DNA of 64,000 bases. Source: Atopococcus tabaci (GTDB lineage Bacteria; Bacillota; Bacilli; Lactobacillales; Carnobacteriaceae_A). Where the stretch lies: contig JAUNQW010000003.1 in NCBI GenBank assembly GCA_030535975.1, positions 1 to 64,000 of the forward strand, given 5' to 3'. The notes under the pieces are model-generated. The model made no database searches, was not told the origin of the DNA, and was given only the letters and a program-made list of their open reading frames with translations. Shown piece after piece: positions 45,817 to 61,914 of the stretch (its first letter is position 1; each line of letters opens with the position of its first letter). The position numbers were made by a program, and so were the translations under genes.

Positions 45817-46962
45817 ATGATTTATTTAGATAATGGTGCGACCACCTTAAAGAAGCCCGATGTAGTTATAGAAGCTGTCACTGACGCTCTTACCCACTTA
45901 GGAAATGCAGGCCGGGGGGCAACGGACGAATCACTCGAAACCTCACGAGTTGTTTTTCAATGTCGATACAACTTAGCGCAACTGATCAATGCAGAATCCG
46001 CCAATCAAATTGCTTTTACACTTAATGCTACAGAGTCTTTAAATGCAGCAATTTTCGGCTTATTTGAACCGGGTGATCACGTGATCACATCCGTCATGGA
46101 ACATAATTCTGTGCTGAGACCCTTACAAGAACTGATAGATTTGGGCTTGGAAGTGACCTATTTGGATGTGAATGATCAGGCCTGCGTGAGTTCAAAAGAT
46201 ATAGAAGAAGCTATTCAACCTCATACTAAAGGGGTCATACTTACTCACGCTTCAAACTTAACAGGGAATATGAATCCTATCGATGATATTGCCAAGGTTA
46301 CACAGGCCCATCAACTCACATTGATCGTCGACGCTTCTCAATCGATAGGAGAGCATCCTATTGATGTCCAACAATCAGGAATTGACGTCCTCTGTTTTAC
46401 AGGGCACAAAGGATTAATGGGACCTCAAGGAACAGGAGGAATTTACGTCCGTCAAGGAATAGATATCAAACCTCTAAAAGTAGGTGGAACCGGGACTCAG
46501 ACTTTCGATGCCCACCATCCACGACAAATGCCGACCGTTTTAGAAGCTGGAACATTAAACGGTCATGGGATTGCAGGATTAAATGCAGCGGTAGAGTATA
46601 TTTTAGAAGAAAGTGTTGAAGATATTTCTGCTTTATTAACTGATCTTACTTATTACTTTTACGACAGAGTAAAAGTAATCGCTGGTGTCAAAGTTTATGG
46701 CCATTTTGATAAAGATATACCAAGAACACCTATCATTTCAATTAATATTGGAAATTTAGACTCATCAGAAGTTGCTAATATCTTATCCGAAGACTACAAT
46801 ATAGCAGTAAGAGCGGGCGGGCACTGCGCCCCAAAAATGCACCAATCTTTGGGAACAGAAAAACATGGAGTTGTTCGATTCAGCCTCTCTATTTTTAATA
46901 ATAAAGAAGAACTGGATGCGGCTATACATGCTGTAGAAGAAATTTCAGAAAAATATCTATAA
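45817..46962 (+). CDS. Cysteine desulfurase-like PLP enzyme (EF2568/TIGR01977 type)
   Basis: This class V aminotransferase-fold enzyme of 381 residues binds PLP through the lysine in CFTGHKGLMGPQG and has the persulfide-forming cysteine in RAGGHCAPKMHQ. This subgroup tends to occur with selenium-use genes, and here it stands next to yedE, DUF3343, grd and sel genes. A role in delivering selenide or reduced selenium (selenocysteine-lyase-like), or in sulfur insertion, is plausible but inferred. It is the only plus-strand gene in the island and has its own terminator. Confidence 0.85.
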   Translation: MIYLDNGATTLKKPDVVIEAVTDALTHLGNAGRGATDESLETSRVVFQCRYNLAQLINAESANQIAFTLNATESLNAAIFGLFEPGDHVITSVMEHNSVLRPLQELIDLGLEVTYLDVNDQACVSSKDIEEAIQPHTKGVILTHASNLTGNMNPIDDIAKVTQAHQLTLIVDASQSIGEHPIDVQQSGIDVLCFTGHKGLMGPQGTGGIYVRQGIDIKPLKVGGTGTQTFDAHHPRQMPTVLEAGTLNGHGIAGLNAAVEYILEESVEDISALLTDLTYYFYDRVKVIAGVKVYGHFDKDIPRTPIISINIGNLDSSEVANILSEDYNIAVRAGGHCAPKMHQSLGTEKHGVVRFSLSIFNNKEELDAAIHAVEEISEKYL

Positions 46963-46978
46963 CTTAATAAAAGAAATA

Positions 46979-47034
46979 AATCCCCATGTTCTGAATGGAC
47001 ATCAAGAGTCTGTTCAGAACATGTGGATTTTTTA
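46979..47034. terminator. Terminator between the desulfurase gene and DUF3343 gene
   Basis: A long stem (CATGTTCTGAA and TTCAGAACATG) with an extended base and T-run lies between convergent genes. Confidence 0.88.
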
Positions 47035-47047
47035 TAGTTAATGTTTT

Positions 47048-47299
47048 TTAGTGAATCATTATTTTTTCGTGAGAAATATCATTTTCTAAAATCAGACCTT
47101 TAGCTTCTTCTTCAGTCTCCACCGGCCCGCGCCAGGCTAAACCGCAGCCAGCGGTTAAAAAAGATGGGGCAGACACTAATTTACCCTTAAGGCCAGCCCC
47201 TTTAAAAAACTTTTCGGCCATGAAAGCATGGTTGGTTTCTTCAAAAAATATATAAAGATAGTTACTATTACTCTTTTTTCTAAACACTTTGTTCCGCAC
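47048..47299 (-). CDS. DUF3343 protein, putative selenium/sulfur carrier (copy 1)
   Basis: This small protein of about 83 residues shows the DUF3343 pattern: an aromatic beta strand (YLYIFFEETNHAFMAEKFF), then SAPSFLTAGCGLAWRG with a conserved Cys-Gly. The family is linked by comparative genomics to selenium metabolism and to YedE. I use the GTG at 47299, which has AAGGAAG 6 nt upstream and overlaps the end of yedE; the TTG at 47305 is too close to that site. It is cotranscribed with yedE. A carrier role is proposed in the field, not proven. Confidence 0.8.
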   Translation of the reverse strand: MRNKVFRKKSNSNYLYIFFEETNHAFMAEKFFKGAGLKGKLVSAPSFLTAGCGLAWRGPVETEEEAKGLILENDISHEKIMIH

Positions 47300-48389
47300 T
47301 GACAACTTCCTTATTCTTTTTAGCAGCTACTCCCCAGAAAGCTATAACAAAAAGTACTACTAGACTTACTAGAACAGCAATTTTTCCTGCTGCGCTTGGG
47401 CCTCCAATTGCTTCTTCACTTGCCCCAGCTGATGTGAGTCCAAAGTTATGAGCCATAGCTACACCAACAAAAATACCTAGAGTAGTCAAAAGCCCGTCGC
47501 CATTCCCCGAGCCTGCTTTGATCAGTTGACGAACTGGACATCCTCCACCGAGAGCACTGGCCAAACCAATACCAAACATAGGTAAGATATTCCATAAATG
47601 TTGAGCATGCGCAATAGGACCATAAGCTGTAAATGCAAAATTACCACTGATAATATTATAAATAAGCAAAGTGAAAAACATACCTAAGACTGGCACGGCA
47701 GCCGTAAAATCGCCTATAGATAAAATGTTTCTTAAGCTACCCGACATACATAAGTTAACCCTTTGACCAATTGCTCCAAATGCAAGCCCCACTATCAATG
47801 AAAGGATTATCGGGGCATGCATGCTGCCGGGACCTTCTTCTGAAAAGATAAACATTTGGGGAACGATTAGAAACAGAATAAATAATGTCAAAAAGATAGT
47901 AGGTAAGACCAGAGTATCACCTTTACGAATAATGGTACCCTCTCCTAGATCAAAACCATTTCTTAAGAAAGATATTCCTACCCAGGACCCCAAAATAAAT
48001 CCTACAAAACCTACATAGCCTGAAATATCTCCTGCAGCCATCCTAATGATCATACGCAAGGTACACCCAAGAAAGACCAAACCCAGAACTCCCATAATTA
48101 AACCTAAAGCAAAGCGTATCGCCGGAGAACTTCCAGATCTCAGGTTTAATCTTCTACCCAAGACCGCCATACCAAATGCTCCTAAGACGATGCCCACAAT
48201 TTCAGGCCTGAAATACTGCACAACAGCCGCCTGATGCAGACCTAATGACCCTGCTATATCCCTCAGGAAACATATCGTACATAAGCCCATGTTCCCTGGA
48301 TTTCCGTAATGAGCCAACAGTATGATACCCAGCCCCAGAACACTACCCAACACAGCTAAAAACCATTTTTTATCCTCATATTTTGCCAT
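47280..48389 (-). CDS. yedE: YedE-type selenium-associated membrane protein
   Basis: This 369-residue protein has about nine to ten membrane segments with the duplicated YeeE/YedE pattern: cysteine-bearing GLCTICFLRDIAG, GCTLRM, RVNLCMSGSLRN and GGGCPVRQLIKAG. These Cys motifs match YedE/YeeE transporters, which move sulfur or selenium species. The partner SirA-like gene yedF is not present; a DUF3343 gene follows instead. It is separated from grdB by a terminator, so it has its own promoter. Confidence 0.88.
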   Translation of the reverse strand: MAKYEDKKWFLAVLGSVLGLGIILLAHYGNPGNMGLCTICFLRDIAGSLGLHQAAVVQYFRPEIVGIVLGAFGMAVLGRRLNLRSGSSPAIRFALGLIMGVLGLVFLGCTLRMIIRMAAGDISGYVGFVGFILGSWVGISFLRNGFDLGEGTIIRKGDTLVLPTIFLTLFILFLIVPQMFIFSEEGPGSMHAPIILSLIVGLAFGAIGQRVNLCMSGSLRNILSIGDFTAAVPVLGMFFTLLIYNIISGNFAFTAYGPIAHAQHLWNILPMFGIGLASALGGGCPVRQLIKAGSGNGDGLLTTLGIFVGVAMAHNFGLTSAGASEEAIGGPSAAGKIAVLVSLVVLFVIAFWGVAAKKNKEVVSAEQSV

Positions 48390-48485
48390 ATTACTCCTCC
48401 TTTTCCTAAGTTTACTTCTTTTATAAGCTTTTTTCCATGTTCACATATTCACATTCATAATAAGTATTATCGATTATTTAAAATA

Positions 48486-48520
48486 AAAAAACAGACACTT
48501 TTTTAAAAGTGTCTGTTTTA
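48486..48520 (-). terminator. Terminator after grdB
   Basis: AAAACAGACACTTTT and AAAAGTGTCTGTTTT arms with a 3-nt loop lie 13 bp after the grdB stop; it closes the grdX-grdE-grdB unit. Confidence 0.9.
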
Positions 48521-48532
48521 AGTAAGTGGTAA

Positions 48533-49828
48533 TTATTCGAATACAGTCTGTCCATCAATATCGGTTACTAAAGTTTGTAATCCTTTTTCAACGATATCGT
48601 AACGTAATTTGTATTCATCATCCATACTTAATGATGGGTTACCGAATGGGTGAGGGATAGCAACAGTAGGTACGATACGGTTAGCTCCTACAGTTTGTGA
48701 GATAGGAGTAACTGTACACATGTGTACTACTGGAACCTCTGCAGCTGCTTCGATAGCTTTTGCAAGCGTTGCACCGCAACGCGTACACGTACCTCAAGTA
48801 GAAGTTAGTAAAACAGCGTCTACTCCGGCATCCTTAAGTTCTTTACCGATTGCTTCTCCATAAGCTTTAGAGTTCGCAACAGAAGTACCGTTACCTACAG
48901 TAGAGTAGAATGTATCGTATAATTTTCCGATAATTCCATCTTTTTCCATCGAACGCATAACGTCCACAGGGATAACACGGTCAGCGTCTTCGTTAGCATA
49001 AGTGTTATCGAATCCACCGTGAGCTGTTTCCCATTCACCTTCAACTAAGTCATCAAGACCTTCGATGCTGTAAGCTCCGAATTTAGATGCTGAAGATGAC
49101 TCAATGCGGTCTGGGTTTCCAGCAGGTACCATACCACCTGAAGTTACAATAGCAATTGTAGCTTTTGATAAGTCTTCAATAGCTGTTTCTGGATCTACCC
49201 GGTCAAAGTCAGGCATAACGAATTCTGTTTTGAATTCTTCGTCATTTAATTTAGCAACTAACATGTCAACTGCACGTTCAGATCCACGCTTTTCAGTAAA
49301 GTAGTTTTTACGGAAACGTTCGTGATATGCATCAACTGCAGGATCAACATCTTCACCAGCTAATAATTTGTTAGCTAAGTTAGAAATTGTTGGAATAGCG
49401 TCACGCATTGCAACAGCTGAGTCTCCAACTCGTGTTACGTATAATAATGTTCTGTAGATATCAGTTCCTGGGTTTTCTTCGTATAAACCAGTAACAGCAG
49501 GAATGTCTAATTCTTCCATAACTGTAGCACCGATCTTACCACAAGCCATTCCGTAACGACCAGCGTTAAATGCAGGTCCTAAGATAACTAAGTCTGGATC
49601 ATAAGATTTGATCATGTCCATAACTTCGTTTAATGCAGAGTCTTTTTCGTTAAAATAGTCGTCTCCACAAACTACTGTACCAACGATCTCAGCATCTTGT
49701 AGCTGAGGGTTAATTCCCATACCAGGTCCTTTGGGTCCATCTTCTTTAAAAGGTGCTGTACCAGCTTCTTCTTCTCCACCGATACCAGCGTAGAATTGGT
49801 TAATATAGTGTACTACTTTTTTACTCAT
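48533..49828 (-). CDS. grdB: Glycine reductase selenoprotein subunit GrdB, with UGA-encoded selenocysteine
   Basis: GrdB is the selenoprotein of substrate-specific component B; with GrdE it forms a Schiff base with glycine and passes a carboxymethyl group to GrdA. The gene is 431 codons including an in-frame TGA at 48796-48794 (residue 345). On both sides the protein matches GrdB: AVLLTST, then Sec-GTCTRC (the U-x2-C-x2-C motif), then MCTVTPISQTVGANRIVPT. Read as a stop, the TGA would give a 344-residue fragment. A strong hairpin follows the TGA (separate entry). AGGAGG precedes the start, and codon use is strongly biased (CGT, GGT), as for abundant proteins. It lies 26 bp after grdE. Confidence 0.96.
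48766..48796 (-). promoter_or_regulatory. Bacterial SECIS-like hairpin in grdB
   Basis: Reading the minus strand, TGA is followed by 11 nt and then a perfect 7-bp hairpin GCGTTGC-GGT-GCAACGC. The apical loop begins with G and lies 18 nt after the TGA, inside the 16-37 nt distance described for bacterial SECIS elements that bind SelB. Confidence 0.8.
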
Positions 49829-49854
49829 TTATATGTGACCTCCTTTTATATTCC

Positions 49855-51141
49855 TTATTGTCCTTTAGCAGACATTTTGTTGAAACCTAATTCGTTAGTA
49901 GCTCCTGTGATTGCTTGAATTTCCACAGTGATTTCTCCGTTTTCTTTCAAGCTTCCATCAAATCCACCAGCGATTTTGTCAACAAAATCATACATACCGA
50001 TTAATTTATCCATTGCAGGTAAGTGGATCACTTCGTTAGCATTTCCACCAGTAACTACCGCATCGGCAGCTACGTCAGCATCCGCTAATGGTTGTGATGC
50101 TCCGTCTTGTCCAGCATACTCATCTGTTGTAATAACAGTAGTGATACCTTTAGCTTCAAGCTTACGACAGTTCATGATTAAGTCTGTATCCGGGTTACCG
50201 AATCCTTCTTGAGTAACAAGAGCTCCGTCTAATCCCATGAATTCTGCTAATTTAGAAGTCATATCAGATGAACGTTCTTTATCCGCTAAGTAAACAGCTT
50301 CGTTAGTGATGATGACTCCCATAAAGTTGATATCTTTTCCATGACGAGCGTATAAATCATGAATAACTGGGTTATTTAAGTGGTGGAAAGTTGTGTTTTT
50401 ATCACATGAAGATACACAGTTACCAGAAATTATTGCTCCATCCATTACTTCAGTTGGGTATAAAATTGTTGGAACGATGTGCTTAGCATCTGTACCATAT
50501 ACATATGTATCATGCAATAATCCTTGAGTCTGCAACATATATACATAACCAACTTTTGGTAAATCAGGGTATTGAGCAGCTTGCTCAAAAATAGGTAATG
50601 TTTCATATGTTTTCACTTCATCAGCTTCAAGTTCAGTTGATAATTCACCTAAGAATTTAGCAACATTTAATCCAGCAAGACGAGCAGCTTCTTCATATGC
50701 ATGGCCTTCTAAGTTATCCACTGGCTCAATTACCAGACATAAGTTATTTGTTTTAGAGAATGGTGTGTAGTCAGCACCAGGACCGCTCATATCAACGATA
50801 CCTTCTTGGAAACCAACGATTTCACCAACTGTTAAAACTGCCATACCTTTTAATGCATTTGTACGTCCAGATCCAACTTCGTTAACTTTGTTAACTACTC
50901 CTGGGAACACACCTGAAGTAGAGTCTACTTTTGCACGAGGCTCAATAGCATCTTTAACCGGTGTAATTCTTGTTTTGTCTCCAGGGCGAGCAATGTCAAT
51001 AGAAACACTTGCAAATCGCTCATCTTCTAATACAATATCTTTAATATCTTGTTCGCTAACGTATAAAACTCCGTCAGAAATTTTAGATTCATCAGCAATT
51101 TGGATATCATTAATTTGAATTTCTCCAACTTCTAATTTCAT
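49855..51141 (-). CDS. grdE: Glycine reductase component B proprotein GrdE
   Basis: GrdE is a precursor that is self-cleaved into two subunits, the larger-chain N-terminus carrying a pyruvoyl group that binds the amino group of glycine. The cleavage site is visible in ISGNCVSSCDKNTTF; with the start chosen here (ATG at 51141, AGAGGTG 9 nt upstream) that cysteine is residue 242, the position reported for the Eubacterium acidaminophilum protein. The ORF extends 12 nt further to a GTG that overlaps the ribosome-binding site. The length is 428 residues. It lies between grdX and grdB. Confidence 0.95.
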   Translation of the reverse strand: MKLEVGEIQINDIQIADESKISDGVLYVSEQDIKDIVLEDERFASVSIDIARPGDKTRITPVKDAIEPRAKVDSTSGVFPGVVNKVNEVGSGRTNALKGMAVLTVGEIVGFQEGIVDMSGPGADYTPFSKTNNLCLVIEPVDNLEGHAYEEAARLAGLNVAKFLGELSTELEADEVKTYETLPIFEQAAQYPDLPKVGYVYMLQTQGLLHDTYVYGTDAKHIVPTILYPTEVMDGAIISGNCVSSCDKNTTFHHLNNPVIHDLYARHGKDINFMGVIITNEAVYLADKERSSDMTSKLAEFMGLDGALVTQEGFGNPDTDLIMNCRKLEAKGITTVITTDEYAGQDGASQPLADADVAADAVVTGGNANEVIHLPAMDKLIGMYDFVDKIAGGFDGSLKENGEITVEIQAITGATNELGFNKMSAKGQ

Positions 51142-51177
51142 TCGATAGTTCACCTCTTAGTATATTTTTGTAATCTC

Positions 51178-51570
51178 TTACAAATAGTTCGGCGGGATTT
51201 GAATGCGAGTTAATGTAGCTTCAACGAGATGGTAGTCGACCATTTGAAAATCTTCTAAGATTTCCTCTGTCCACTTCGGCGTGGCTTTATCTGCAACAAA
51301 TTTATTGTAAGTTGCCTGAGCACTTTCAATTAATTCTAAGCTGTACAAATCAACATATTCACTTTTTTGACTATTTAAAAATATAGATTTATAAAAAGTT
51401 TCATTTGGTTTTATACTTCCACTTAAAGGGTGACTTAATAGAACTTGACGTTCATCAATAATCATTTCTTTGGTTGTTTCTAATACATCGCCGTAGTCTC
51501 CATCAATAAAGTAAATTTTTTGACCCTCAATTTCTTTATTTACTTTAGGATTGTTTGTGACTATTCTCAT
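51178..51570 (-). CDS. grdX: GrdX protein
   Basis: This 130-residue protein of unknown biochemical role is found almost only in glycine, sarcosine or betaine reductase clusters. The N-terminus MRIVTNNPKV and the segment LSHPLSGSIKPNETFYKSIF match the family by recollection. It lies 24 bp upstream of the grdE frame and is the first gene of the X-E-B unit, as its usual first place in clostridial grd operons would suggest. It has a weak ribosome-binding site (AAGAGTGTGG) behind a structured leader. Confidence 0.85.
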   Translation of the reverse strand: MRIVTNNPKVNKEIEGQKIYFIDGDYGDVLETTKEMIIDERQVLLSHPLSGSIKPNETFYKSIFLNSQKSEYVDLYSLELIESAQATYNKFVADKATPKWTEEILEDFQMVDYHLVEATLTRIQIPPNYL

Positions 51571-51679
51571 TCATACCACACTCTTTCACAATTAAATGCC
51601 ACCTAGATACTTCCGCATCCAGATAAATTTTACGGCCAGAAGGAAGTGCTGTTTTTTGAAGCACAGAACTTCCTGACCC
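51571..51679 (-). ncRNA. Structured leader ahead of grdX
   Basis: About 109 nt separate the predicted transcription start (near 51679) from grdX. The first part (51634-51678) folds into GGTCA/TGGCC (one G-U pair), GGAAGT/ACTTCC and CTGT/ACAG stems, starting right at the predicted 5' end. A weaker ATGC/GCAT hairpin follows nearer the start codon. It resembles no riboswitch I know; the glycine aptamer core is not present. Confidence 0.45.
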
Positions 51680-51685
51680 ATATAC

Positions 51686-51713
51686 ATTATACCACACTTA
51701 TTAGTTACCACAA
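51686..51713 (-). promoter_or_regulatory. Promoter for grdX-grdE-grdB
   Basis: TTGTGG and TATAAT with a 16-bp spacer on the minus strand lie between grdD and grdX. Its presence means X-E-B can be transcribed apart from C-D. Confidence 0.65.
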
Positions 51714-51720
51714 TCAGCGA

Positions 51721-51755
51721 TTAATGGCTTAGATATAAGGGTCGCAGCCGATTAA
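51721..51755 (-). other. Hairpin after grdD without T-run
   Basis: On the minus strand TTAAT-C-GGCT and AGCC-ATTAA form a 9-bp stem with one bulge and a loop of about 15 nt, 30 bp after the grdD stop. There is no U-tract, so it may be a processing or 3'-stabilising structure rather than a terminator. Confidence 0.45.
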
Positions 51756-51784
51756 AACAATTTTCTTATATACATATTAATTTA

Positions 51785-52951
51785 TTAAATAAAGCCGCTC
51801 TCTGTAATAACTTCACGAGCTTCATCTTCTTTAGCAGTATTCACTAAGACGATTGGTCCCGCACAACCCATACCAGATTCAGCATAAATGCCTTCTTTCC
51901 ATAGAGATTGAACAGCAGCGTCTAAGTCTAACACGTCAACACCTGTAATCTCTTTGTCAACAACTTCATGATCTGGAGCTGCAACTTCCTCTTCAGCTGC
52001 TGCTTGTTTTGGTTGTAAATCTTCACGGATTTCGTCCAACTGAGCTTTTTTAGCTTTAGAGTACTCATCAGCAGAAACTTGAGCTAAGTCTCCTGAAGCT
52101 AATTGAGCAGCATATTCTAAAGCGTTGGCAATAACAGGTGCTCCTGAAGCACGTGAAATGATACAGATATTATCCTTGAAACCGTCTCCAATTCCTGGTC
52201 CATATCCATCACCAATTGCTTCATACTGTCCGCCTGTAGTACCTGCACCATATAATTTCATTAAGATATTACCAGTTAATGAATCACATACTACTACATC
52301 TGCCTGGCCAGTGATGATGTCGTTACCACGTAGGATATTACCTCCATCAGAACGACCACTTTCAGCAAACTCAATATCGTAACCATTTTCTTGTAATTCT
52401 TTTAATTTACGCGTTACTGTGTTAGCGTCATCAACGTTTAACACACCAACTTTAGGGTTAGGAACACCTGAAGCTTTTGCAGCGATAACTCCATTAATTG
52501 CATTCAATACCATAGCCTCTGCACGTACTGTAGCAGTAGTACCAGTAGTAGTTGCAATATACATGTTCTTACCAGTTGCCTGTGCAGGTACACGTCCTAC
52601 AGTAGACACTCCAATAGGGAAAGTATGGTGCAGTGTAACAGCACCTTGGATAGTATTATCGTCTAATAACTTTTGCAACACTTCTGCCGTTTCATCTTCA
52701 CTGTTTGCTTCATAGAATTCATAATCAGCAGTCCAGTCTTGTTCTTCACCGATGATAACGATGTCGAATGCTTCTTTTTGACTAGCTAAACGTACCGCTT
52801 CTTCCATGACAGCAAAACCATTCTCTGAACCATTGATTGTTAAACCAACTTTTGGACGGTCACCCATTTTACCAGTTTCTAAAGCATCCGCTAAGTCATT
52901 TAAGACATCACGTACGTGACCTTTTACTAATTTAATTTGATCTTCAGCCAT
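51785..52951 (-). CDS. grdD: Glycine reductase component C subunit GrdD
   Basis: GrdD and GrdC form component C, which takes the acetyl group from GrdA-bound Se-carboxymethyl-selenocysteine as a thioester and releases acetyl phosphate. The 388-residue protein has a phosphotransacetylase/FabH-linked fold with GTTATVRAEAMVLNAINGVIA-like and GYGPGIGDGF segments and a conserved cysteine close to the C-terminus (GMGCAGPIVLVNT, about residue 363), the expected catalytic place. It lies 29 bp after grdC. Confidence 0.93.
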   Translation of the reverse strand: MAEDQIKLVKGHVRDVLNDLADALETGKMGDRPKVGLTINGSENGFAVMEEAVRLASQKEAFDIVIIGEEQDWTADYEFYEANSEDETAEVLQKLLDDNTIQGAVTLHHTFPIGVSTVGRVPAQATGKNMYIATTTGTTATVRAEAMVLNAINGVIAAKASGVPNPKVGVLNVDDANTVTRKLKELQENGYDIEFAESGRSDGGNILRGNDIITGQADVVVCDSLTGNILMKLYGAGTTGGQYEAIGDGYGPGIGDGFKDNICIISRASGAPVIANALEYAAQLASGDLAQVSADEYSKAKKAQLDEIREDLQPKQAAAEEEVAAPDHEVVDKEITGVDVLDLDAAVQSLWKEGIYAESGMGCAGPIVLVNTAKEDEAREVITESGFI

Positions 52952-52980
52952 TAGTCATACCTCCTAATGTATGGATGTTA

Positions 52981-54522
52981 TTATAAGTTTCCAGCTAATC
53001 CACGTAATGCAGAAGCAACTTCGTCTTTGATGATAGATTTTAATTCATCGTCAACAGAAACTGAGCTTCCGGATGAAACTTCTCCTGAGTTACGCTCGAT
53101 CAAGACTGAAACTCCATCGAATAAGTTAGTTAAACGACCTAAGAATAGAGATCCTTTACCGATCATTAGTACACGGTCCATGTCTCCATCAACTAAGTCT
53201 TGTTTAGCGAATGCTAAGTAAGGTACCCCTGAAGGAATGTGTCCTTGAGTAGGAGCCCACCCAGGGATTCCAGCTGCAACGAAATCATTTAATTCATCAC
53301 GTTGTAAGTCTCCAGCCATAACACCTAAAGCACCAAGCATTTTCAAGTTAGCTTCTGGAACGTTACCTGCTCCACCTGGTTCTGTGATGTCCGGGTTTTG
53401 TAACTCAGTTGCAAATCCATCAATTTCAGTCATGTTGAGGCCCGCACCCTCTAAAATCGGGTCTGTTAATGCTTTCATAGTCGCTTGAGGCGAAGAACCG
53501 TCTCCTACTTTAATAGCGCCCGTTAAGTCTGTACGGATTACTGGAGAAACCCCGTCGTTTTCTGACACTACAAATGCAAAGCCAGCAACACAGTCTTCTA
53601 AAATTGGAACATCTTTAGAAATGTGTGATTTACCGTTCATACCTAATTTAGCAGTTGATCCACCTGCTACAACTGCAACGTTTTTGTGTGTTCCAGCTTT
53701 CACCATTGATGCCGCTACAATTAAAGCATGCACTGGAGCTGCACAGAAACCACGTAAGTCAGAACCGGTAGACTTGGTTAATTTAGACACTTCTGCGATA
53801 GCTTTAGCGAAGTTACCTCCACCACGCTGGTTAATGTCTCCACACGCTTCCTCCGAACACTCGATGACGTAATCAATTTCAGTAGGATCGATGTCTGTTC
53901 CTTTTAACATATTATTCATTGCTAAAATACCAGAAGCTTTCGCTACTAAGTTCTCAGCCATAACATGCGATGTTAAGTTTGGATCAGAATCGTGCGCACG
54001 GTTGATACAACCTACTAATTCATCTTCATGGTATAAAGGAGCAGCTTCGTAATTTTCGATGTGATCCTTGATATAATCAATGCTCACGAACTGCTTCATT
54101 TCTGCTGCATCATCTTTGAATAAGTCATGCTCTGATAAAGCTTCTTGAGCTTTTTTACCAAATGATTCTTCCAAATGTACTAATTCGAAAGAGTCAGAGA
54201 TTTCTAATAAGCCGTAGAATTCCAATTGAGGCATAATTTCCCCGCCTGGTGCAAAACGGTCCCCTTCTACAGGGTTTTTATACCAAGGCATTTCAATTTC
54301 TTTTAATTCACTGTAATGTTTATTCCCAATGTATACTTGGTTTGCTGGATAGTTTACAGCATCTTCATAGGAACGAATGTATTTTTCACCATTCTTTAAG
54401 TAATCACTGTCTCCATCCGGATTAGAGATTCTTTCGTTTACTGCTGTCGAACCATACTCTAAAATCATATCTGGTGTGTGTGCTAAAACATATCCTGTAC
54501 CACGTACTGTTGCGAAATCCAT
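52981..54522 (-). CDS. grdC: Glycine reductase component C subunit GrdC
   Basis: This 513-residue FabH-like subunit of component C helps form the enzyme-bound acetyl thioester. Family segments include IECSEEACGDINQRGGGN, LRGFCAAPVHALIVAASM and GIPGWAPTQGHIPSGVPYL. AAGGAGG precedes the ATG. The gene is separated from grdA by a strong terminator and is preceded by a roughly 160-nt structured leader (separate entry). Codon use is biased, as in grdB and grdA. Confidence 0.94.
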   Translation of the reverse strand: MDFATVRGTGYVLAHTPDMILEYGSTAVNERISNPDGDSDYLKNGEKYIRSYEDAVNYPANQVYIGNKHYSELKEIEMPWYKNPVEGDRFAPGGEIMPQLEFYGLLEISDSFELVHLEESFGKKAQEALSEHDLFKDDAAEMKQFVSIDYIKDHIENYEAAPLYHEDELVGCINRAHDSDPNLTSHVMAENLVAKASGILAMNNMLKGTDIDPTEIDYVIECSEEACGDINQRGGGNFAKAIAEVSKLTKSTGSDLRGFCAAPVHALIVAASMVKAGTHKNVAVVAGGSTAKLGMNGKSHISKDVPILEDCVAGFAFVVSENDGVSPVIRTDLTGAIKVGDGSSPQATMKALTDPILEGAGLNMTEIDGFATELQNPDITEPGGAGNVPEANLKMLGALGVMAGDLQRDELNDFVAAGIPGWAPTQGHIPSGVPYLAFAKQDLVDGDMDRVLMIGKGSLFLGRLTNLFDGVSVLIERNSGEVSSGSSVSVDDELKSIIKDEVASALRGLAGNL

Positions 54523-54534: not shown

Positions 54535-54690
54535 TAAATTTATTGAAACAAGCGGTTTATGTGAGTGCTTTCACAAACACAAAGATGCCGAATAGTCATG
54601 ATTTATGGACTCATAACTCTTGTTTGGCTCAGTATGATATTACCTCACACTGATTTTTTTATAAAGCGGTCACTGTGACCACTTTAACTA
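54535..54690 (-). ncRNA. Highly structured leader ahead of grdC
   Basis: On the minus strand four consecutive hairpins precede the grdC start: (a) 54663-54685, AAAGTGGTCA/TGACCGCTTT, loop 3; (b) 54629-54653, TCAGTGTGA/TCATACTGA, loop 7; (c) 54587-54628, outer GCC/GGC with inner AGTTATGA/TCATGACT, loop 9; (d) 54555-54578, GTTTGTGA/TCACATAAAC with a 2-nt bulge. Stems a, b and c each contain exactly one G-U pair, which favours RNA over a protein operator. No riboswitch consensus known to me fits. Confidence 0.55.
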
Positions 54691-54705
54691 TACTATTTTA
54701 TATAT

Positions 54706-54738
54706 AAAAAAGCTAGCATTCGTTTTACAAATGCTAGC
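54706..54738 (-). terminator. Terminator after grdA
   Basis: GCTAGCATT and AATGCTAGC arms, perfect 9-bp stem, followed on the minus strand by TTTTTTATAT. It lies 69 bp after grdA and separates it from grdC, so grdA can be expressed at a higher level than the rest. Confidence 0.92.
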
Positions 54739-54806
54739 CCTACCTATTGACTGTTCTGTCATTCAATGACTAGCAAGAGTCACCAGGTTCTATTTTCAGT
54801 TATTAA

Positions 54807-55274
54807 TTAAGCATTAGCAGATTCACGTACGCGGTTCATTTCTTCAACGATTCCGTCTACGTCTAACACCATTTCCATCATACCGATTTGCTCATCGTAT
54901 ACTCCACCGTCAACGAATTCTTTGAATTCTGGTTCAACAGCATGTAATACGTCTAAGTTTAATGCGGCACCAGTTAGTGGTCCTGCATAAGTAGGGTCAC
55001 CTGTGATAACAGTTTCAGCGTTTAATCCTGCTGCATCAGGTTCTGCTCCACCAATGATTACTACAATGTTTTCTGCTCCGTGCTCGTCCGCTGCTTCTTT
55101 TACTCTACGTTGATTTTCCAAATCCATGGCTCCTGCGGCCGTTCAGACAAAACACTCTGTAGATGAGAACACAACGTCTGCTGATGTTCCTTTTAATGTT
55201 TCTTCAATTGCTTGACCTGGGATACCGTCACGGTCTCCGATAACTAGTACTTTTTTATTATCTAAAACTGACAT
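54807..55274 (-). CDS. grdA: Glycine reductase selenoprotein A, with UGA-encoded selenocysteine
   Basis: GrdA carries the carboxymethyl group as a selenoether between components B and C. The full gene is 155 codons from the ATG at 55274 (GAGGAGG upstream) and contains an in-frame TGA at 55145-55143, residue 44, the known Sec position. The redox motif is Cys41-Phe-Val-Sec44, followed by [20 protein letters not shown]. Treating the TGA as a stop leaves only an internal 106-residue ORF. The protein starts [20 protein letters not shown], typical of GrdA. It has a near-consensus promoter, a 5'-terminal hairpin and its own terminator, fitting its need in excess. A GGC/GCC mini-hairpin follows the TGA, but I see no strong SECIS at the ideal distance. 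Confidence 0.96.
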
Positions 55275-55306
55275 AGTTATTCCTCCTCAAATTTTATTTG
55301 TTTTTG

Positions 55307-55333
55307 GTATGAAGTGATTCACACCTTTCATAC
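55307..55333 (-). promoter_or_regulatory. 5'-terminal hairpin of grdA mRNA
   Basis: GTATGAA/TTCATAC plus GTG/CAC with a 2-nt bulge and a 5-nt loop. It begins about 7 nt after the -10 box, so it sits at the predicted 5' end, where such structures protect mRNA from 5'-end-dependent decay. Confidence 0.55.
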
Positions 55334-55339
55334 AAATCT

Positions 55340-55367
55340 ATTATAGCAAATTGCTCGCAACTGTCAA
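55340..55367 (-). promoter_or_regulatory. Strong sigma-A promoter for grdA
   Basis: TTGACA and TATAAT, both perfect consensus, with a 16-bp spacer on the minus strand. It is the best-matching promoter found in the window. Confidence 0.88.
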
Positions 55368-55492
55368 ATTTTAACTCATTCATTAAAGATAATAATTCAA
55401 ACTCACTTGACAGAGAAAACAAGGTCCTAAAAGCTATGTTTAATAAGGATTCAGCAGTTACATAGTTTTACAAACAACTTTATTATTTTAAT

Positions 55493-55551
55493 AAAAAAAG
55501 CTCTTCATTAAAATACCTAATGCACTTATTAAGGTCTTAAATAAGCTTTTT
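55493..55551 (-). terminator. Terminator after the glycosyltransferase gene
   Basis: AAAAAGCT and AGCTTTTT arms plus an inner ACCT/AGGT stem; the 5' arm overlaps the stop codon of the glycosyltransferase gene. It ends the sel operon and isolates it from grdA. Confidence 0.65.
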
Positions 55552-56805
55552 AATCATCAAAGCTATTTCATCAATGATGCCTGACCACGAATGATCAGCC
55601 ACTTCATTCGTCACTTGCAGGCTCCAAGCCGAACGCTGCTTACCATTAGGGTCGGCTTCTATCTTATGATAGTGCGCGACTACAGCATCTGCGATTCTCT
55701 GGACAAAGCCGGGAATGTCTTCTCCCACCGGAGTATCTACATTTTCTAGACGAGGTAACTTTATATAATCAATAACACCAGAGTCATTCACTATATCTCC
55801 TAATAGCCAGCTCAAATTTTCATTTTCTGAGATGACCACTCTTGTTCGAGTAGCTAAAGCTTCAATAGCGCTCAACGCAATCCCTTCATAATAACTGGGC
55901 AAGATGTATACATGTGCTTTTTGTAAGAATTTTGCATAATCTTCCTGCCGGACTGCAGGAGTAAACTCAAGATGATTGGATCCCCCCGCCTTTTGGATTA
56001 TACGCTTTTTTTGCTCTTCTGTAGCGTTTCCTACAATCAACAGCCGGCTTTGAGGTATCTGTTCTAAAATTTTTGGAAAGGCACGTGCAAGTTCATAAAC
56101 TCCTTTAGCATGAGATACCTTTCCTGCATAGATTAAATTAAACGCCTCATTTGAAGATTCTTCAAGATCCGGATGGAAAATTGTTTCATCAAAACCTCCG
56201 CCTGTGACTGTTATTTTGTCCATTGAAATAGAAAATATCTTATGCAGCCGTTCTGCATCTGTAGGACTTAAAGCAAAATAAGCATCCAGTTCATCGGCAG
56301 AGGTGACATATTTTTCGTGAATCCAAGGGTTCATCCTCACCTGTCTGATATCTGTCCCATGTGATATCCCTATCACAGGAATACCATCGAATACTTCGCG
56401 CACAATTGATGTCATCATAAAAACATGGTGTGAGACAATTACATCCGGTTGAAATTCCTCTTTAGCTTCTTTTAAGCGTTTTTTGAAAGCTTGACGCCAT
56501 GCTGCAAACTCATCAGGAGACATCTGACTATATATAGTAGATTCATAAGGCATTTCATCACTCATGCCTGGAATCGCAAAGGGAAGTTCTTCATTCTTGA
56601 ACTGGATGGGATAATATTTTTCAGCAGGAGGAAGCGCTACTTCACAGCCGCTCTGTTCAGCAAAAAGCAAAGCATTCTTAAACCCTAAGTTGTCCAGGCC
56701 CTTGACAAGATGTCTATAATAAATACCGCTGCCCGTCATTCCAGGGAGTTGAGATATGCAGTGCAGAATTTTTATATTTTCAGTTTCTCTCATCTGTCTA
56801 ATCAT
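55537..56805 (-). CDS. GT4-type glycosyltransferase in the sel operon
   Basis: This 422-residue protein is a GT-B fold glycosyltransferase: an N-terminal glycine-rich acceptor loop (LPGMTGSGIYYRHLVKG), GISHGTDIRQ in the middle, IYAGKVSHAKGVYEL opening the donor half, and the E-x7-E region SYYEGIALSAIEALATR. It starts 2 bp after selA, so it is cotranscribed and probably cotranslated with selA. Its substrate is unknown. A selenosugar-forming role is conceivable, since a glycosyltransferase (SenB) makes selenosugar in selenoneine synthesis, but a capsule or glycolipid enzyme carried along is equally possible. Confidence 0.8.
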   Translation of the reverse strand: MIRQMRETENIKILHCISQLPGMTGSGIYYRHLVKGLDNLGFKNALLFAEQSGCEVALPPAEKYYPIQFKNEELPFAIPGMSDEMPYESTIYSQMSPDEFAAWRQAFKKRLKEAKEEFQPDVIVSHHVFMMTSIVREVFDGIPVIGISHGTDIRQVRMNPWIHEKYVTSADELDAYFALSPTDAERLHKIFSISMDKITVTGGGFDETIFHPDLEESSNEAFNLIYAGKVSHAKGVYELARAFPKILEQIPQSRLLIVGNATEEQKKRIIQKAGGSNHLEFTPAVRQEDYAKFLQKAHVYILPSYYEGIALSAIEALATRTRVVISENENLSWLLGDIVNDSGVIDYIKLPRLENVDTPVGEDIPGFVQRIADAVVAHYHKIEADPNGKQRSAWSLQVTNEVADHSWSGIIDEIALMIKKLI

Positions 56806-56807
56806 TC

Positions 56808-58199
56808 TTAATTACTAACAGCTTGCGCCAGCGCTTCAGCAATAAGATCATAATCTCCCTCAAGCAGGGTTCTTAAGTCGAAATAAACCGCCCCGTCATC
56901 AATTCGGGCGATAATATGGTTCTTCGACAAACGCAGCTCCCGTTCCAGCCTTGACTCGTTGCATTTAGGATGCTCGATCCGAAGCAGACTAGTCGGCAGC
57001 TGCTCCCCCGGGTAAGCCCCTCCGCCTACTTGGGAATAGCCTGGTTCAATTTTTAAGTCAAAATCGGAATCACGTGCTTCAATCTTTTCTTTCAAGACTT
57101 GTGCTTTTTTTGCACAGTCTTCTCGACTTAAACTGATCATTTTTAAGGTCGGGATTTTTTCAATTGCTTGTTCCGGATTAAGATATAAACGAAGAGTAGC
57201 CTCTAAAGCGGCGATCGTCGCTTTATCCGTTCTTAGCGCACGCAATAAGGGTGAAGATTTAAGTTTTTCTATATAGGATTTTTTACCTACTATAATACCT
57301 GCCTGCGGCCCGCCTAATAGTTTATCTCCACTGAAGGATACAAGGTCATAATCTGCCTCAATCATTTCTCCTACAGTAGGCTCATAGGATAAACCTAATT
57401 TTTGTAAGTCAAACAACAGACCGCTGCCCAAATCATTGAAAGCAGGCAGGCCATGGTCGTGAGCCAGCTGGACAAAGTCCCTGTCACTCACTGCTTCGGT
57501 AAAGCCTATTAAGCGGTAGTTACTCGTATGAACACGTATTAAGGCTGCCGTTTCTTCATTAATACCCTTTTCATAATCTTTGATGTGCGTTTTATTCGTG
57601 GAGCCTACCTCATGCAAAATAGCTCCTGTGCTTTCAATTACGTCTGGTATTCTAAAAGAACCGCCAATTTCTACCAGTTCACCTCGAGAAATAAGAACTT
57701 CTTTTCTTTGAGCAAAGCTCGTTAAAATCAAAAGTACAGCCGCTGCATTGTTATTTACAACCAAGGCATCCTCTGCTCCAGTTAGTTCTCTAAGTATATT
57801 TTGAATATGAACATAGCGTGAGCCTCTTTTTCCTTTATCAATATCATATTCTAAGTTAGAAAAAGATTCACCGGCTGCCTGCATTTCGTCAAGAGCCTCT
57901 TCGGCCAGCAACGCTCGGCCTAAATTAGTATGGAGAACTGTTCCTGTCGCATTAATAGCGGGCACTAAAGAGGGTTCAACTCCTTGAGCTAAAAATTCAA
58001 CTACTCGTTGACTCACCGCCTCGACAGACACATCTTGGTCAACATCATTTAATAAGTTTGCACGGATGCCATCCTGTACAACTTTAATTTTTTCTTTGAT
58101 TAGCTCCCGTGTATAGTTCTTTTGCCAAATTTTTATATCTTCCTGCTCTAGTAACAAATCAACGGAAGGTAATTGTGATAGTTTTTTTTTCATCGACAT
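56808..58199 (-). CDS. selA: L-seryl-tRNA(Sec) selenium transferase
   Basis: SelA converts Ser-tRNA(Sec) to Sec-tRNA(Sec) using selenophosphate. The PLP lysine is in LVSFSGDKLLGGPQAG, the region INATGTVLHTNLGRALL is characteristic, and the C-terminus contains GGGAYPGEQLPTSLLRIEH. The length of 463 is typical. The gene begins 4 bp after selB and is followed after 2 bp by the glycosyltransferase gene. Confidence 0.96.
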   Translation of the reverse strand: MSMKKKLSQLPSVDLLLEQEDIKIWQKNYTRELIKEKIKVVQDGIRANLLNDVDQDVSVEAVSQRVVEFLAQGVEPSLVPAINATGTVLHTNLGRALLAEEALDEMQAAGESFSNLEYDIDKGKRGSRYVHIQNILRELTGAEDALVVNNNAAAVLLILTSFAQRKEVLISRGELVEIGGSFRIPDVIESTGAILHEVGSTNKTHIKDYEKGINEETAALIRVHTSNYRLIGFTEAVSDRDFVQLAHDHGLPAFNDLGSGLLFDLQKLGLSYEPTVGEMIEADYDLVSFSGDKLLGGPQAGIIVGKKSYIEKLKSSPLLRALRTDKATIAALEATLRLYLNPEQAIEKIPTLKMISLSREDCAKKAQVLKEKIEARDSDFDLKIEPGYSQVGGGAYPGEQLPTSLLRIEHPKCNESRLERELRLSKNHIIARIDDGAVYFDLRTLLEGDYDLIAEALAQAVSN

Positions 58200-58203
58200 T
58201 ACT

Positions 58204-60090
58204 CTACTTTCTGTTTTTTAAGATTCTGACATCATCTTGTCGTGCGGTTATACCTATATCGTCGAGGTGCTCCAGGAAAGGCATGATATATTTTCGACTA
58301 GTATCCAGGAGATCTCGAGCCTCACCCAGACTGATCGTGTCGTTTTCTTCTATATAATCAATGATTTTTTGTTTAGCTTCCTCAAAGACGTCTCTATGGA
58401 ATACTAAAGATTGATTTAACTGGTAGAGTTCCTTACCAGTCATTTGATAAAATATTTCAGCCTCTAAAGTCCCCTTTTCAATAATCTGATCAATAAATGG
58501 CGGCTGCATACCGGCCGCTTTAATTTCATTTTCAAGTCGACTGTGGATTTTTTTCTGTTCAGGGGTATATTTCACTTCAAAATCAGCTAAGGCAATATAT
58601 TGACCTTCTACCTTTATTTCCTCATCTTCTGTGAGACGTTTCAATACTGCATCCACATCACGGGGCTGGACTTGTTTGAAACGAGAACGAAATTCTTCCA
58701 GAGGCATACCCGCTCTTATCTTGTATTGGTCATGGTATTCTGCCAGAATATTTTTCATGTCCTCTTTCAGCGAGTTGAAGGATTCAGCTGCCATATAATG
58801 TTGTCTAAAAGCAATGAGCTGTCCGTCAACAATCATTTCCTGCAGAACGTCTTCAAGCTCAGCAGCGCTGGTATGGATTCCATCTGAAATTTCCTTGACT
58901 GTAAATTGCCCTTGTTGGCCGTCTGTAATGAAATCTTGGATAATAGCTGATAAATCTCCAGATTCTTTTATAGCCAGACTTTCAATGACATCTTCATTAA
59001 AGCGTTTGTGCTTTTCAGGAGACTCATCTAAAACAGTCCCACCTGCAACCGTGATCACAGGAGAAAAGCGTCTTAGAATAAAACGATCCTCTTTTTTCAC
59101 CGTTACTTTTTCTTCTAAACGAAGCTGGGCAAATCCTTCATCACCGGGATAGATTTCTTCAACACCCAATGGAACTACACGCCCGATTACCTCTTTTGTA
59201 CCTATATTGACATGCATGCGGTCCCACATCTTGACCGGTTCTTCAGCCTCTGCTATTACCTCAAGCTTGACATCCAACATATAAGAAGCTTCTAGATGAC
59301 CTGCTGTCAGGACATCTCCGCGATGAATATCATCCAAACTTAACTTAGTCAAATTGAGAGCCGTTCGGTTCCCTGCATGAGCTGCAGGTTCATCATTGCC
59401 GTGAATCTGGATATTACGGACAGTCGTTTCGATCTCCTCAGGGTAGAGTGTCAGTGTGTCTCCTACTTCCAGCACCCCTTCAGCCAGAGTTCCGGTAACG
59501 ACCGTACCGATTCCTTTGACCGAGAAAGCACGATCGACATTCAAGCGAGCCGGTACAGATTCCTTTTGAGAAAAGTCTGAGTCTTCGGCCATCGTCTGAA
59601 TAACTGATTTCAAGTCATCGATTCCAATACCTTCAACAGCATCTGTTTCGACCATCACTGCATTATCTAAAGGAGTTCCTGAAAACTGGTCCCGTATATC
59701 TTCTTTCACAATTTCTAATAAAGTCTCATCCGCCTGAGCTGTCTTGGTTAATACAATGATAAACTTTTCAATCCCCAATAAAGTGAGGATAGCAGCATGT
59801 TCTTGAGTTTGAGGCATGATTCCTTCATTTGCATCAATAACTAAAAGAGCAGCATCGATACCTGCTGCTCCAGCTAGCATATTTTTAACAAACTTTTCAT
59901 GACCAGGAACATCTACTATGCCAATTTCTTCACCGTTGTCCAGAGTTAAATAAGTAAATCCTAAATTAATCGTCAGACCCCGCTCTTTTTCTTCCCTCGT
60001 TGAATCAAGGTCCTCTCCTGTCAATGCCTTAATCAGGGTCGATTTACCGTGGTCAATATGTCCAGCTGTACCGATGACAAAGTTTTGCAT
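58204..60090 (-). CDS. selB: Selenocysteine-specific elongation factor SelB
   Basis: SelB delivers Sec-tRNA(Sec) to UGA codons marked by a SECIS hairpin. The N-terminal EF-Tu-like GTPase has [20 protein letters not shown] and a recognisable G4-like VLTKTAQ; the C-terminal half is a run of winged helices (about 400-628) that bind mRNA, ending [20 protein letters not shown]. The length of 628 is normal for Firmicutes. It follows the DUF3343 gene by 12 bp. Confidence 0.96.
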
Positions 60091-60102
60091 GATGTGCGGC
60101 TC

Positions 60103-60366
60103 CTATTCATTAAATAATTCGTATTTTTTAGATCCATCTTCCTCTTCAATAATAGCATATATTTTTATTTCAGAAGCAAAGCTTATATCTGAAAGAATTT
60201 TTTTCACTTCTTCAAGTTCTTCTTCAGAAAATCTTAAAGACAGACCGCATGCAGCAGAAATTGTTTCTGGCGTGCCGACCATACGGATTTTAATTTTATT
60301 TTTTTTAATCATAGTTTCTGCATGAATCGCATCATGCGTATCATTAAAAACACCTAAATAACCCAT
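60103..60366 (-). CDS. DUF3343 protein, putative selenium/sulfur carrier (copy 2)
   Basis: This 87-residue protein has the family pattern [20 protein letters not shown], then [17 protein letters not shown] with the Cys-Gly turn, and an acidic C-terminal half. I chose the ATG at 60366 with GAGG 7 nt upstream; the ORF continues to 60390 without support. It lies between selD and selB, strengthening the view that DUF3343 proteins act in selenium handling. It is clearly different from the copy beside yedE. Confidence 0.82.
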
Positions 60367-60391
60367 CATTTCACCTCTATAAATCAGCATA

Positions 60392-60443
60392 GAGCTATAG
60401 TCAGGGAGGGTCGTAAGTTAATACCCGCAAAAAACTACAGCTC
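60392..60443 (-). other. RNA hairpin between selD and DUF3343 gene
   Basis: On the minus strand GAGCTGTAGT and ACTATAGCTC form a 10-bp stem with one G-U pair, enclosing GGGT/ACCC. There is no T-run. It ends about 14 nt before the DUF3343 ribosome-binding site, so it could set the expression ratio of selD to the downstream genes. Confidence 0.5.
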
Positions 60444-60493
60444 AGCTATCTTTCTTTTTAGTTAAATAATCATGATTTTTTTATCACTGAGAT

Positions 60494-61561
60494 TTATTCT
60501 GCATCCTCTTCTTTATCATATAAAGTAATGAGTTTTTCTCCTGCTTCTCTTACTCGTCCAACATACGCTGCCGGAACACCTGCTTCTACCATTTCTTCCA
60601 TTAAAGCATCCTTCTCATCGTGAGGGATACTGATCAGTAACCCGCCTGCAGTTTGTGGGTCAAATAAAAGTGCATCTAAATATGGATCTCGTTCAGAACT
60701 TTCATGATATTCGACTTTGTGAATGATATGCTGGCGATTACGTTTTCCACCACCTGTTTTTACACCTTGTGCAGCGACTTCGTAAGCACCTTCAATCAAT
60801 GGAACATTTTCAATAAATATATCGGCTCCCAGACGATCGGCCAGCATTTCTTCCAGGTGGCCCAAGAAACCAAAACCTGTAATATCTGTACAAGCATGAG
60901 CATTATGTCTCAGCATAATTTCCGCAGGATATTTATTCAGTACTGTCATATGCTTGATCGCATTTTGTAAAGTTTCTTCTGGTGTCTTACCACTATTATA
61001 TCCTGAAGCAACCAATCCTGAACCAATCGGCTTTGTAAGAATTAGAGCATCTCCAAGCTTAAGTCCATCATTAGTAAGAATCTTGTCCGGATGCACAATA
61101 CCGGCAACCGCTAAACCATACACAGGAGTGTCAACATCTATAGTATGCCCACCTGCAATGGTAGACTCAGATTCAATGACTTTGTCAGCCCCGCCTCTTA
61201 AAATATCTCCTAAGATAGTTAAGTCTGATTTCTGCGGGTATCCAACCAGGTTTAAGGAAACAATTGGTTTCCCACCCATAGCGTACACATCACTTAAGGA
61301 GTTCGTTGCAGCAATTTGACCAAATAGATAAGGGTCCTCGATCATTGGAGGGAAAAAATCTGTTGTTAAAATTAAAGCAATATCATCAGACAATTTATAA
61401 ACAGCTGCGTCATCTGTTGTGTCATAACCAACCATTAAATTGTCATCTTTTCGATTGGGCAGCGCTTTTAATATTTCTGATAAACTATCAGGTCCAATTT
61501 TAGCGCTTCAACCCCCGCATAAAGATCCTAGGTTAAAATTTCTTTTTTCTTCATTAATCAT
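60494..61561 (-). CDS. selD: Selenophosphate synthetase SelD, itself a selenoprotein
   Basis: SelD makes selenophosphate from selenide and ATP. The true gene starts at ATG 61561 (AGAAAGAGTG upstream) and reads through an in-frame TGA at 61510-61508 as residue 18: NFNLGSLCGG-Sec-SAKIGPDSL. This is the usual Cys/Sec active-site position of SelD, followed by the lysine of SAKIGP. Without readthrough only a 313-residue fragment from 61435 would be predicted. ATP- and metal-binding residues are seen in GYDTTDDAAVY, ATNSLSDVYAMGG and the C-terminal half (CTDITGFGFLGHL). The length is 355 residues. Because SelD needs Sec for its own synthesis, Sec production is autocatalytic here. Confidence 0.95.
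61461..61510 (-). promoter_or_regulatory. Bacterial SECIS-like hairpin in selD
   Basis: After the TGA, AGCGCT (61502-61507) can pair with AGCGCT (61461-61466), enclosing a perfect 6-bp hairpin CTGATA-GTT-TATCAG. The apical loop starts with G and lies 22 nt after the TGA, fitting the bacterial SECIS distance rule. Confidence 0.78.
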
Positions 61562-61604
61562 CTTAATCACTCTTTCTATAAGTGCTTTTCCATCGTATTT
61601 AATA

Positions 61605-61638
61605 TAAAAAAAGACTGCTTGCCTATGCAAACAGTCCT
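61605..61638 (-). terminator. Terminator after tRNA-Sec
   Basis: GACTG/CAGTC and TTGC/GCAA stems followed by TTTTTTT on the minus strand, between the tRNA 3' end and selD. The sel mRNA must read through or start beyond it. Confidence 0.82.
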
Positions 61639-61682
61639 CATGTTTTAAGAGAGTATTTTAATCTATACTCTTGAAATTTCTC

Positions 61683-61779
61683 TGGCGGGAACGTGTGAGA
61701 ATCGAACTCACCCAAGAAGCTCTTAACTCCTCATACTGGTTTTGAAGACCAGAGGGAACACCAGAACCCATCCGCTCCC
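61683..61779 (-). tRNA. selC: tRNA-Sec (anticodon UCA), CCA encoded
   Basis: The 97-nt gene has the anticodon loop CTTCAAA closed by CTGGT/ACCAG, giving anticodon TCA that reads UGA. The T arm is GTGAG-TTCGATT-CTCAC. The acceptor arm is long (GGGAGCGG against ACGTTCCC; seven pairs including a G-U, with a G-A at the eighth) as in bacterial tRNA-Sec, and the variable arm is long. The 3' end is G-CCA. It is the first gene of the sel cluster, with its own promoter and terminator. Confidence 0.95.
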
Positions 61780-61797
61780 ATAAAAAGTCACTATTAA

Positions 61798-61826
61798 AGA
61801 ATACTATAATAAAATAAAAAAAGCAA
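61798..61826 (-). promoter_or_regulatory. Promoter of tRNA-Sec (proximal)
   Basis: TTGCTT and TATTCT with a 17-bp spacer; the -10 box lies about 20 nt upstream of the mature tRNA 5' end. Confidence 0.65.
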
Positions 61827-61886
61827 ATATTTATTTCTTTTATCTTGCGTCCCAGAGAAAGGACTGTTGCATTACTGCCTACTCTT

Positions 61887-61914
61887 ATTATAAGGGACAT
61901 AGAGTGAATTTCAA
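61887..61914 (-). promoter_or_regulatory. Possible distal promoter upstream of tRNA-Sec
   Basis: TTGAAA and TATAAT with a 16-bp spacer on the minus strand, about 108 nt upstream of the tRNA. The transcript would carry a leader with a small GTCC/GGAC hairpin (around 61850-61865) before the tRNA. Confidence 0.5.

Follow-up and report, generated by a model that had tools for sequence, protein, structure and literature searches.

We analysed positions 1-64000 (the window) of a 77,301-base contig, JAUNQW010000003.1, from a metagenome-assembled genome of Atopococcus tabaci (1.33 Mb in 57 contigs, 85% complete), and focused on an island of selenium and glycine reductase genes at 45817-61914. On the minus strand, the order of transcription is selC, selD, a DUF3343 gene, selB, selA, a gene for a GT4-family glycosyltransferase, grdA, grdC, grdD, grdX, grdE, grdB, yedE, and a second DUF3343 gene, while a gene resembling cysteine desulfurases and selenocysteine (Sec) lyases lies on the plus strand at the far end. 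An earlier reading made from the letters of this DNA alone (the sequence-only reading) had named all of these genes except the GT4 gene and had called the island complete; every gene it named was found, and the full sel and grd sets are present. Our reading, to which we assign a probability of about 0.9, is that this is a complete Sec-decoding and glycine reductase island in a Lactobacillales genome, with the pathway proposed below, an old shared origin, and a selenium-linked GT4 glycosyltransferase. It draws directly on the gene content, the UGA positions, the tRNA-Sec, one Sec insertion sequence (SECIS), and the taxonomy, distribution, and phylogeny, and draws on family knowledge for the biochemistry, substrate, and energy yield. 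The genes are as follows.

61683/61687 to 61779, minus strand: selC, tRNA-Sec (UCA); ARAGORN, and Rfam RF01852 at 67 bits
60494 to 61561, minus strand: selD, selenophosphate synthase; Sec at residue 18 (CGGU), UGA at 61508-61510
60103 to 60390, minus strand: DUF3343/Se_S_carrier, first copy; PF11823 at 68.6 bits
58204 to 60090, minus strand: selB, Sec-specific elongation factor; SelB winged-helix domains, TIGR00475 at 351 bits
56808 to 58199, minus strand: selA, selenocysteine synthase; PF03841 at 520 bits
55537 to 56805, minus strand: GT4-family glycosyltransferase, 422 amino acids; ATG 2 nucleotides after the selA stop
54807 to 55274, minus strand: grdA, selenoprotein A; Sec at residue 44 (CFVU), UGA at 55143-55145
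52981 to 54522, minus strand: grdC, component C beta; NF040746 at 713 bits (cut-off 450)
51785 to 52951, minus strand: grdD, component C alpha; NF040747 at 538 bits (cut-off 350)
51178 to 51570, minus strand: grdX; NF038093 at 125 bits (cut-off 40)
49855 to 51153, minus strand: grdE, component B alpha/proprotein; family match and tree
48533 to 49828, minus strand: grdB, selenoprotein B; Sec at residue 345 (STUGTC), UGA at 48794-48796; TIGR01918 at 608 bits (cut-off 65)
47280 to 48389, minus strand: yedE, putative selenium transporter; TIGR04112 at 380 bits (cut-off 200)
47048 to 47305, minus strand: DUF3343/Se_S_carrier, second copy; PF11823 at 68.5 bits; longest open reading frame, true start uncertain
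45817 to 46962, plus strand: cysteine desulfurase/Sec-lyase-like pyridoxal phosphate enzyme; TIGR01977 at 421 bits (cut-off 377)

The Sec-decoding trait is represented by all of selC, selD, selA, and selB, and in-frame UGA codons stand at the established Sec sites of GrdA (residue 44), GrdB (residue 345), and SelD (residue 18). In the plain list of open reading frames grdB had 344 amino acids, and reading through its UGA extends the product to 431. A SECIS follows this codon directly; the selD UGA is followed by a folding hairpin and the grdA UGA by a weak one, neither of which matches an Rfam family. The desulfurase-like protein scored 304 bits with the SclA model and did not reach its cut-off of 525. 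The gaps between selB and selA (4 bases) and between selA and the GT4 gene (2 bases) are so short that the GT4 gene appears to close the sel operon, and grdA-C-D-X-E-B looks like a second transcription unit, as judged from the promoter-like and terminator-like features listed here, beside the SECIS, and a further terminator-like hairpin, also a sequence match only, after selC.

48756 to 48793, minus strand: SECIS_4, directly after the grdB UGA (48794-48796); Rfam RF01990, 44.7 bits, E 4e-7
61887 to 61914, minus strand: near-perfect promoter-like TTGAAA-16-TATAAT upstream of selC; consensus match only
55340 to 55367, minus strand: perfect promoter-like TTGACA-16-TATAAT upstream of grdA; consensus match only
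54709 to 54741, minus strand: predicted terminator-like hairpin between grdA and grdC
48488 to 48519, minus strand: predicted terminator-like hairpin after grdB

The GT4 protein belongs to its superfamily by its match to PF00534 (Glycos_transf_1; 80.5 bits), the GT-B fold of its predicted structure (Z about 30; mean predicted local distance difference test score 75), and its EX7E motif. Orthologues lie between selA and grdA in Facklamia, and in the alignment of the family E296/E304 and K218/K223 are invariant, with an identity within the family of only about 40%. When 48 named genomes that bear Grd proteins were searched with a profile of this family, members scored 361 to 622 bits and the next proteins 93 or less; 23 of the 48 contained a member or a member-like match above this gap. 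A sample of 295 Lactobacillales genomes contained SelB above its cut-off in 33, belonging to six families, and all 13 GT4 carriers in it were SelB positive (hypergeometric p 4e-14, or 1e-8 when counted by genus). Among 245 Clostridia, 55 of them SelD positive, the nine carriers that scored at least 380 bits were all SelD positive (p 8e-7); a tenth match, of 151 bits, lay in the score gap and came from a SelD-negative genome. In many carriers the GT4 gene is found away from both the sel and the grd genes (for example, loci L179, L184, and L187), so linkage alone does not explain its co-occurrence with selenium use. These results demonstrate that the family is sharply delimited and confined to selenium users in the genomes sampled, and this co-occurrence makes it very probable that the GT4 protein serves selenium metabolism.

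Clostridia sequences are mixed among those of Lactobacillales in the GT4 tree, which indicates that some of the spread was horizontal. The gene adjoins an importer operon for a substrate-binding protein (SBP), a permease, and an ATPase in seven loci (L183, L185, L186, L190, L213, L215, and L217), one of which ends before the SBP gene; the hosts are Lactobacillales and one Clostridia genome, and the best models for these importers are of the 2-aminoethylphosphonate type, all below cut-off. A different importer with a similar layout lies beside the GT4 gene in Facklamia. Homologues interrupted by one in-frame TAA, possibly decaying genes, were seen in Gemella sanguinis (G112:C2:98884-100092) and Parvimonas micra (G344:C1:532368-533579).

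According to a description from 2024, no Se-glycosyltransferase other than SenB has been identified functionally (PMC10891094). The GT4 protein scored 22.5 bits with the SenB model TIGR04348, against a cut-off of 300, and in the GT4 alignment the EGGAHV donor-binding motif of SenB is missing, with YYEGL..IEA at that region; by both tests it does not belong with SenB. The 50 PDB fold matches listed for the GT4 model include no chain that is labelled as SenB, which excludes nothing; the closest folds were BshA, PimB', MshA, and others, tied. We tentatively suggest, as a possibility that we hold to be unlikely in this specific form, that the family represents a second type of Se-glycosyltransferase, independent of SenB, or acts at a closely allied step on a small molecule that contains selenium. 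With a UDP-sugar and either the selenophosphate made by SelD or a selenol as substrates, it could form or remodel a selenosugar by which anaerobic Firmicutes would store, move, or take up selenium, together with the ATP-binding cassette (ABC) importer that is its neighbour in several genomes. In Slackia, STRING links YedE to a glycosyltransferase (Shel_25140), as tabulated in an earlier survey (PMC5322559).

Two other roles for the GT4 family were weighed. It might serve glycine reductase or amino acid fermentation and not selenium itself, since GrdB is over-represented among the selenium users that carry it (12 of the 13 Lactobacillales carriers, p 0.03; 8 of the 9 Clostridia carriers, p 0.03) and it adjoins a grdE/grdB pair in Clostridium algidicarnis. 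However, two carriers that use selenium, G271 and G437, gave no full-length GrdB match, many Grd-positive genomes, including most Enterococcus, have no GT4 gene, and in the window the gene belongs to the sel operon, so that we regard this role as doubtful, with about one chance in four. The family could instead consist of ordinary cell-surface glycosyltransferases, present in the operon by chance. A fold like those of BshA, PimB, MshA, and other enzymes, the low identity within the family, and the lack of a SenB signature are all compatible with this. It is nevertheless improbable, because the GT4 gene is restricted to selenium users in the samples of both classes and is often unlinked to sel or grd, because the family is set apart by a sharp score gap (at least 361 versus 93 bits), and because its start codon in the window lies just 2 nucleotides behind the selA stop.

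The glycine reductase complex is encoded in full, as selenoprotein A, component B (GrdE and GrdB), and component C (GrdC and GrdD). GrdB scored 601.1 bits with the glycine-specific model TIGR01917, 1.1 short of its cut-off of 602.2, and the assignment of glycine therefore rests on the tree and the shared operon type rather than on a passed model. Judged in this way, glycine is likely to be the substrate of the component B of the island. If component B instead reduced sarcosine, or another N-substituted glycine, this would accord with the sarcosine models, with which GrdE scored best for GrdG (682; cut-off 780) and GrdB reached 603 for GrdF (cut-off 800), both below their cut-offs. We consider this quite improbable, since the glycine-type score of GrdB is only just short, the tree groups the GrdB and GrdE of the island with those of full grdX-E-A-B-C-D operons, and a separate second component B beside a hydantoinase in the same genome is the better sarcosine candidate. 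This second cluster, on contig C17 (L094:4936-11452), encodes a dihydropyrimidinase/hydantoinase (466 bits, cut-off 393), an isochorismatase-type amidohydrolase, GrdX, and GrdE- and GrdB-type proteins, the latter with a UGA; in Aerococcus sp. HMSC062A02 (L099) a similar set adjoins the grd genes. Its content suggests a route from N-methylhydantoin or creatinine to sarcosine and on to the reductase, such as has been described for Tissierella creatinophila (PMC5364220) and Clostridium sp. FS41 (PMC4417704).

From family knowledge we infer the following pathway. YedE, the two DUF3343 proteins, and the desulfurase-like enzyme would probably take up or handle selenium, SelD would produce selenophosphate, SelA would charge the tRNA-Sec, and SelB would bring Sec to the UGA codons of grdA, grdB, and selD. 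GrdE/GrdB (component B) and GrdA would then reduce the substrate, most likely glycine, to a Se-carboxymethyl intermediate, which GrdC/GrdD would release as acetyl phosphate. Acetate kinase, encoded outside the island, would convert acetyl phosphate to acetate with a gain of ATP, and thioredoxin reductase, also encoded outside the island, would help to regenerate reduced GrdA; the GT4 protein, encoded at the end of the sel operon, would serve selenium metabolism. AckA (534 bits, cut-off 293) and TrxB (378 bits, cut-off 343) are encoded elsewhere in the genome, and an ATP gain from glycine fermentation is therefore plausible.

The sequence-only reading had proposed that a lineage resembling Lactobacillales, in which this trait would be unusual, had gained or kept the island as one unit. 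The assembly contains no 16S gene, so RpoB was used for placement, in a tree that took in named Facklamia, Aerococcus, Enterococcus, Vagococcus, and Loigolactobacillus. The genome fell in a well supported group with its own family (f1) inside Lactobacillales and not in Clostridia or Tissierellia, in agreement with the proposed host. The island is also not standard in close relatives, with SelB in 3 and full GrdB in 2 of the 27 genomes of the family. The trait itself is less unusual for the order than had been supposed: besides the SelB counts given above, seven named genera of Lactobacillales (Facklamia, Aerococcus, Falseniella, Atopobacter, Enterococcus, Vagococcus, and Loigolactobacillus) have the system, with relatives of GrdB also found in Clostridia and Tissierellia. 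In a tree of GrdB plus GrdE (81 rows), all 32 island-type Lactobacillales sequences, including the one studied here, formed a single clade (Shimodaira-Hasegawa-like approximate likelihood ratio 100) with an Aerococcaceae-type and an Enterococcus/Vagococcus-type half, and the paralogous component B pairs of contig C17 and of Aerococcus fell far outside it. SelB trees placed the SelB of the island in the Aerococcaceae-type group, with Aerococcaceae and members of the family, and constraining it to the family members was not rejected (approximately unbiased test, p 0.146), so that vertical descent within the family is neither shown nor rejected. The GC content of the island is 39.5%, compared to 37.2% in its flanks, and third-position GC (GC3) values overlap, so there is no compositional shift.

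The single Lactobacillales clade and the flank-like composition make it probable that the trait is old and patchy in the order, and they do not support a recent gain by this lineage. "As one unit" holds only in part: from genome to genome, the blocks sel, grdA-C-D, grdX-E-B, and yedE/DUF3343 change in order and orientation. Probably, the island goes back to an old acquisition common to Lactobacillales, after which it was lost in places and/or passed between members of the order, and its blocks were reshuffled; a transfer from another member of Lactobacillales is possible. That this lineage recently took up the entire island from Clostridia or Tissierellia by horizontal transfer, with which the patchiness of the island in the family and the grouping of its SelB with an order relative of another family (L143, f5; support 81/95) would agree, is very improbable given the position of GrdB plus GrdE, on a long branch of its own, inside a Lactobacillales-only clade, the resemblance of GC and GC3 to the flanks, and the SelB constraint result, and a direct, recent clostridial origin is rejected by that tree and the composition.

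Several points weigh against our overall reading. Rfam recognised no SECIS element behind the UGA of either grdA or selD, the glycine-specific GrdB model was narrowly missed, and the island lacks trxA and trxB, unlike most of its relatives, with thioredoxin itself not searched for in the genome. In the association p-values for the GT4 gene, shared ancestry is taken into account only through the genus-level count and the use of a second class. Finally, the 80 GrdB loci were picked by similarity to the query, and wider sampling could shift the one-clade result.

Neighbouring and side observations were also made. The gene yebC (window 44036-44794) adjoins the island, as it does in Facklamia languida (L189:4623-5351), and a 252-amino-acid open reading frame without a Pfam match (window 62088-62846) lies beside selC. 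A genome of the Vagococcus family (G224) carries two SelB genes above cut-off, on contigs C16 and C23.

A survey of 2006 recorded one SelD in Lactobacillales, an orphan in Enterococcus faecalis (PMC1794560). Full-text searches of the papers available to us found no report of the Sec/glycine reductase trait for Vagococcus, Facklamia, or Aerococcus, and in the literature on glycine reductase, Stickland reactions, selenium, and selenoproteins, read mostly by title and abstract, we found no paper that apparently describes the island in Lactobacillales. Selenocysteine use and glycine reductase are hardly described in lactic-acid-type bacteria, and SelB occurs in about one in nine of the sampled Lactobacillales genomes, with several of the genera found in people and animals. 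Selenium-dependent amino acid fermentation thereby becomes a testable trait of these bacteria. The selenium-restricted GT4 gene offers a concrete candidate, open to cloning, for an uncharacterised step in selenium metabolism, and it is what most deserves to be taken further.

Compared to known systems, the GT4 protein resembles SenB (TIGR04348; PMC10891094) in being a GT-B-fold glycosyltransferase genetically tied to selenophosphate synthase, and it has weak similarity to the SenB profile (E 5e-5 for the window protein and 3e-9 for that of Falseniella). It differs from SenB in scoring 22 to 36 versus 300 bits, in lacking EGGAHV, in being about 90 residues longer, and in having no selenoneine-type neighbours that we saw. 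Its predicted model aligned with BshA (3mbo_D; Z 32.0, root mean square deviation 3.5 over 348) and MshA (3c4q_B; Z 30.4, 3.7 over 362), enzymes of bacillithiol and mycothiol synthesis, but shares only 15 to 16% identity with them; since they were tied with PimB', GlgM, and other GT4 enzymes, no function follows from the fold. The island as a whole is like the Clostridium/Tissierella operon (grdX-(trxB-trxA)-E-A-B-C-D) in having all grd genes, Sec in both GrdA and GrdB, and a GrdB of about 60 to 63% identity, and is unlike it in its split order (grdA-C-D, then grdX-E-B), its lack of trxA and trxB, and its union with the sel operon and yedE. The clusters of Facklamia, Falseniella, Aerococcus, and Atopobacter belong to the same clade and consist of the same blocks, with the GT4 gene of Facklamia likewise between selA and grdA, whereas their blocks are arranged in other orders and on other strands; a YedF-like gene, absent from this island, occurs in several of them, and some have an ABC importer with the GT4 gene. 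Taken together, the island is a known kind of system in a variant layout, one that recurs in Lactobacillales and has been little noticed in the literature searched.

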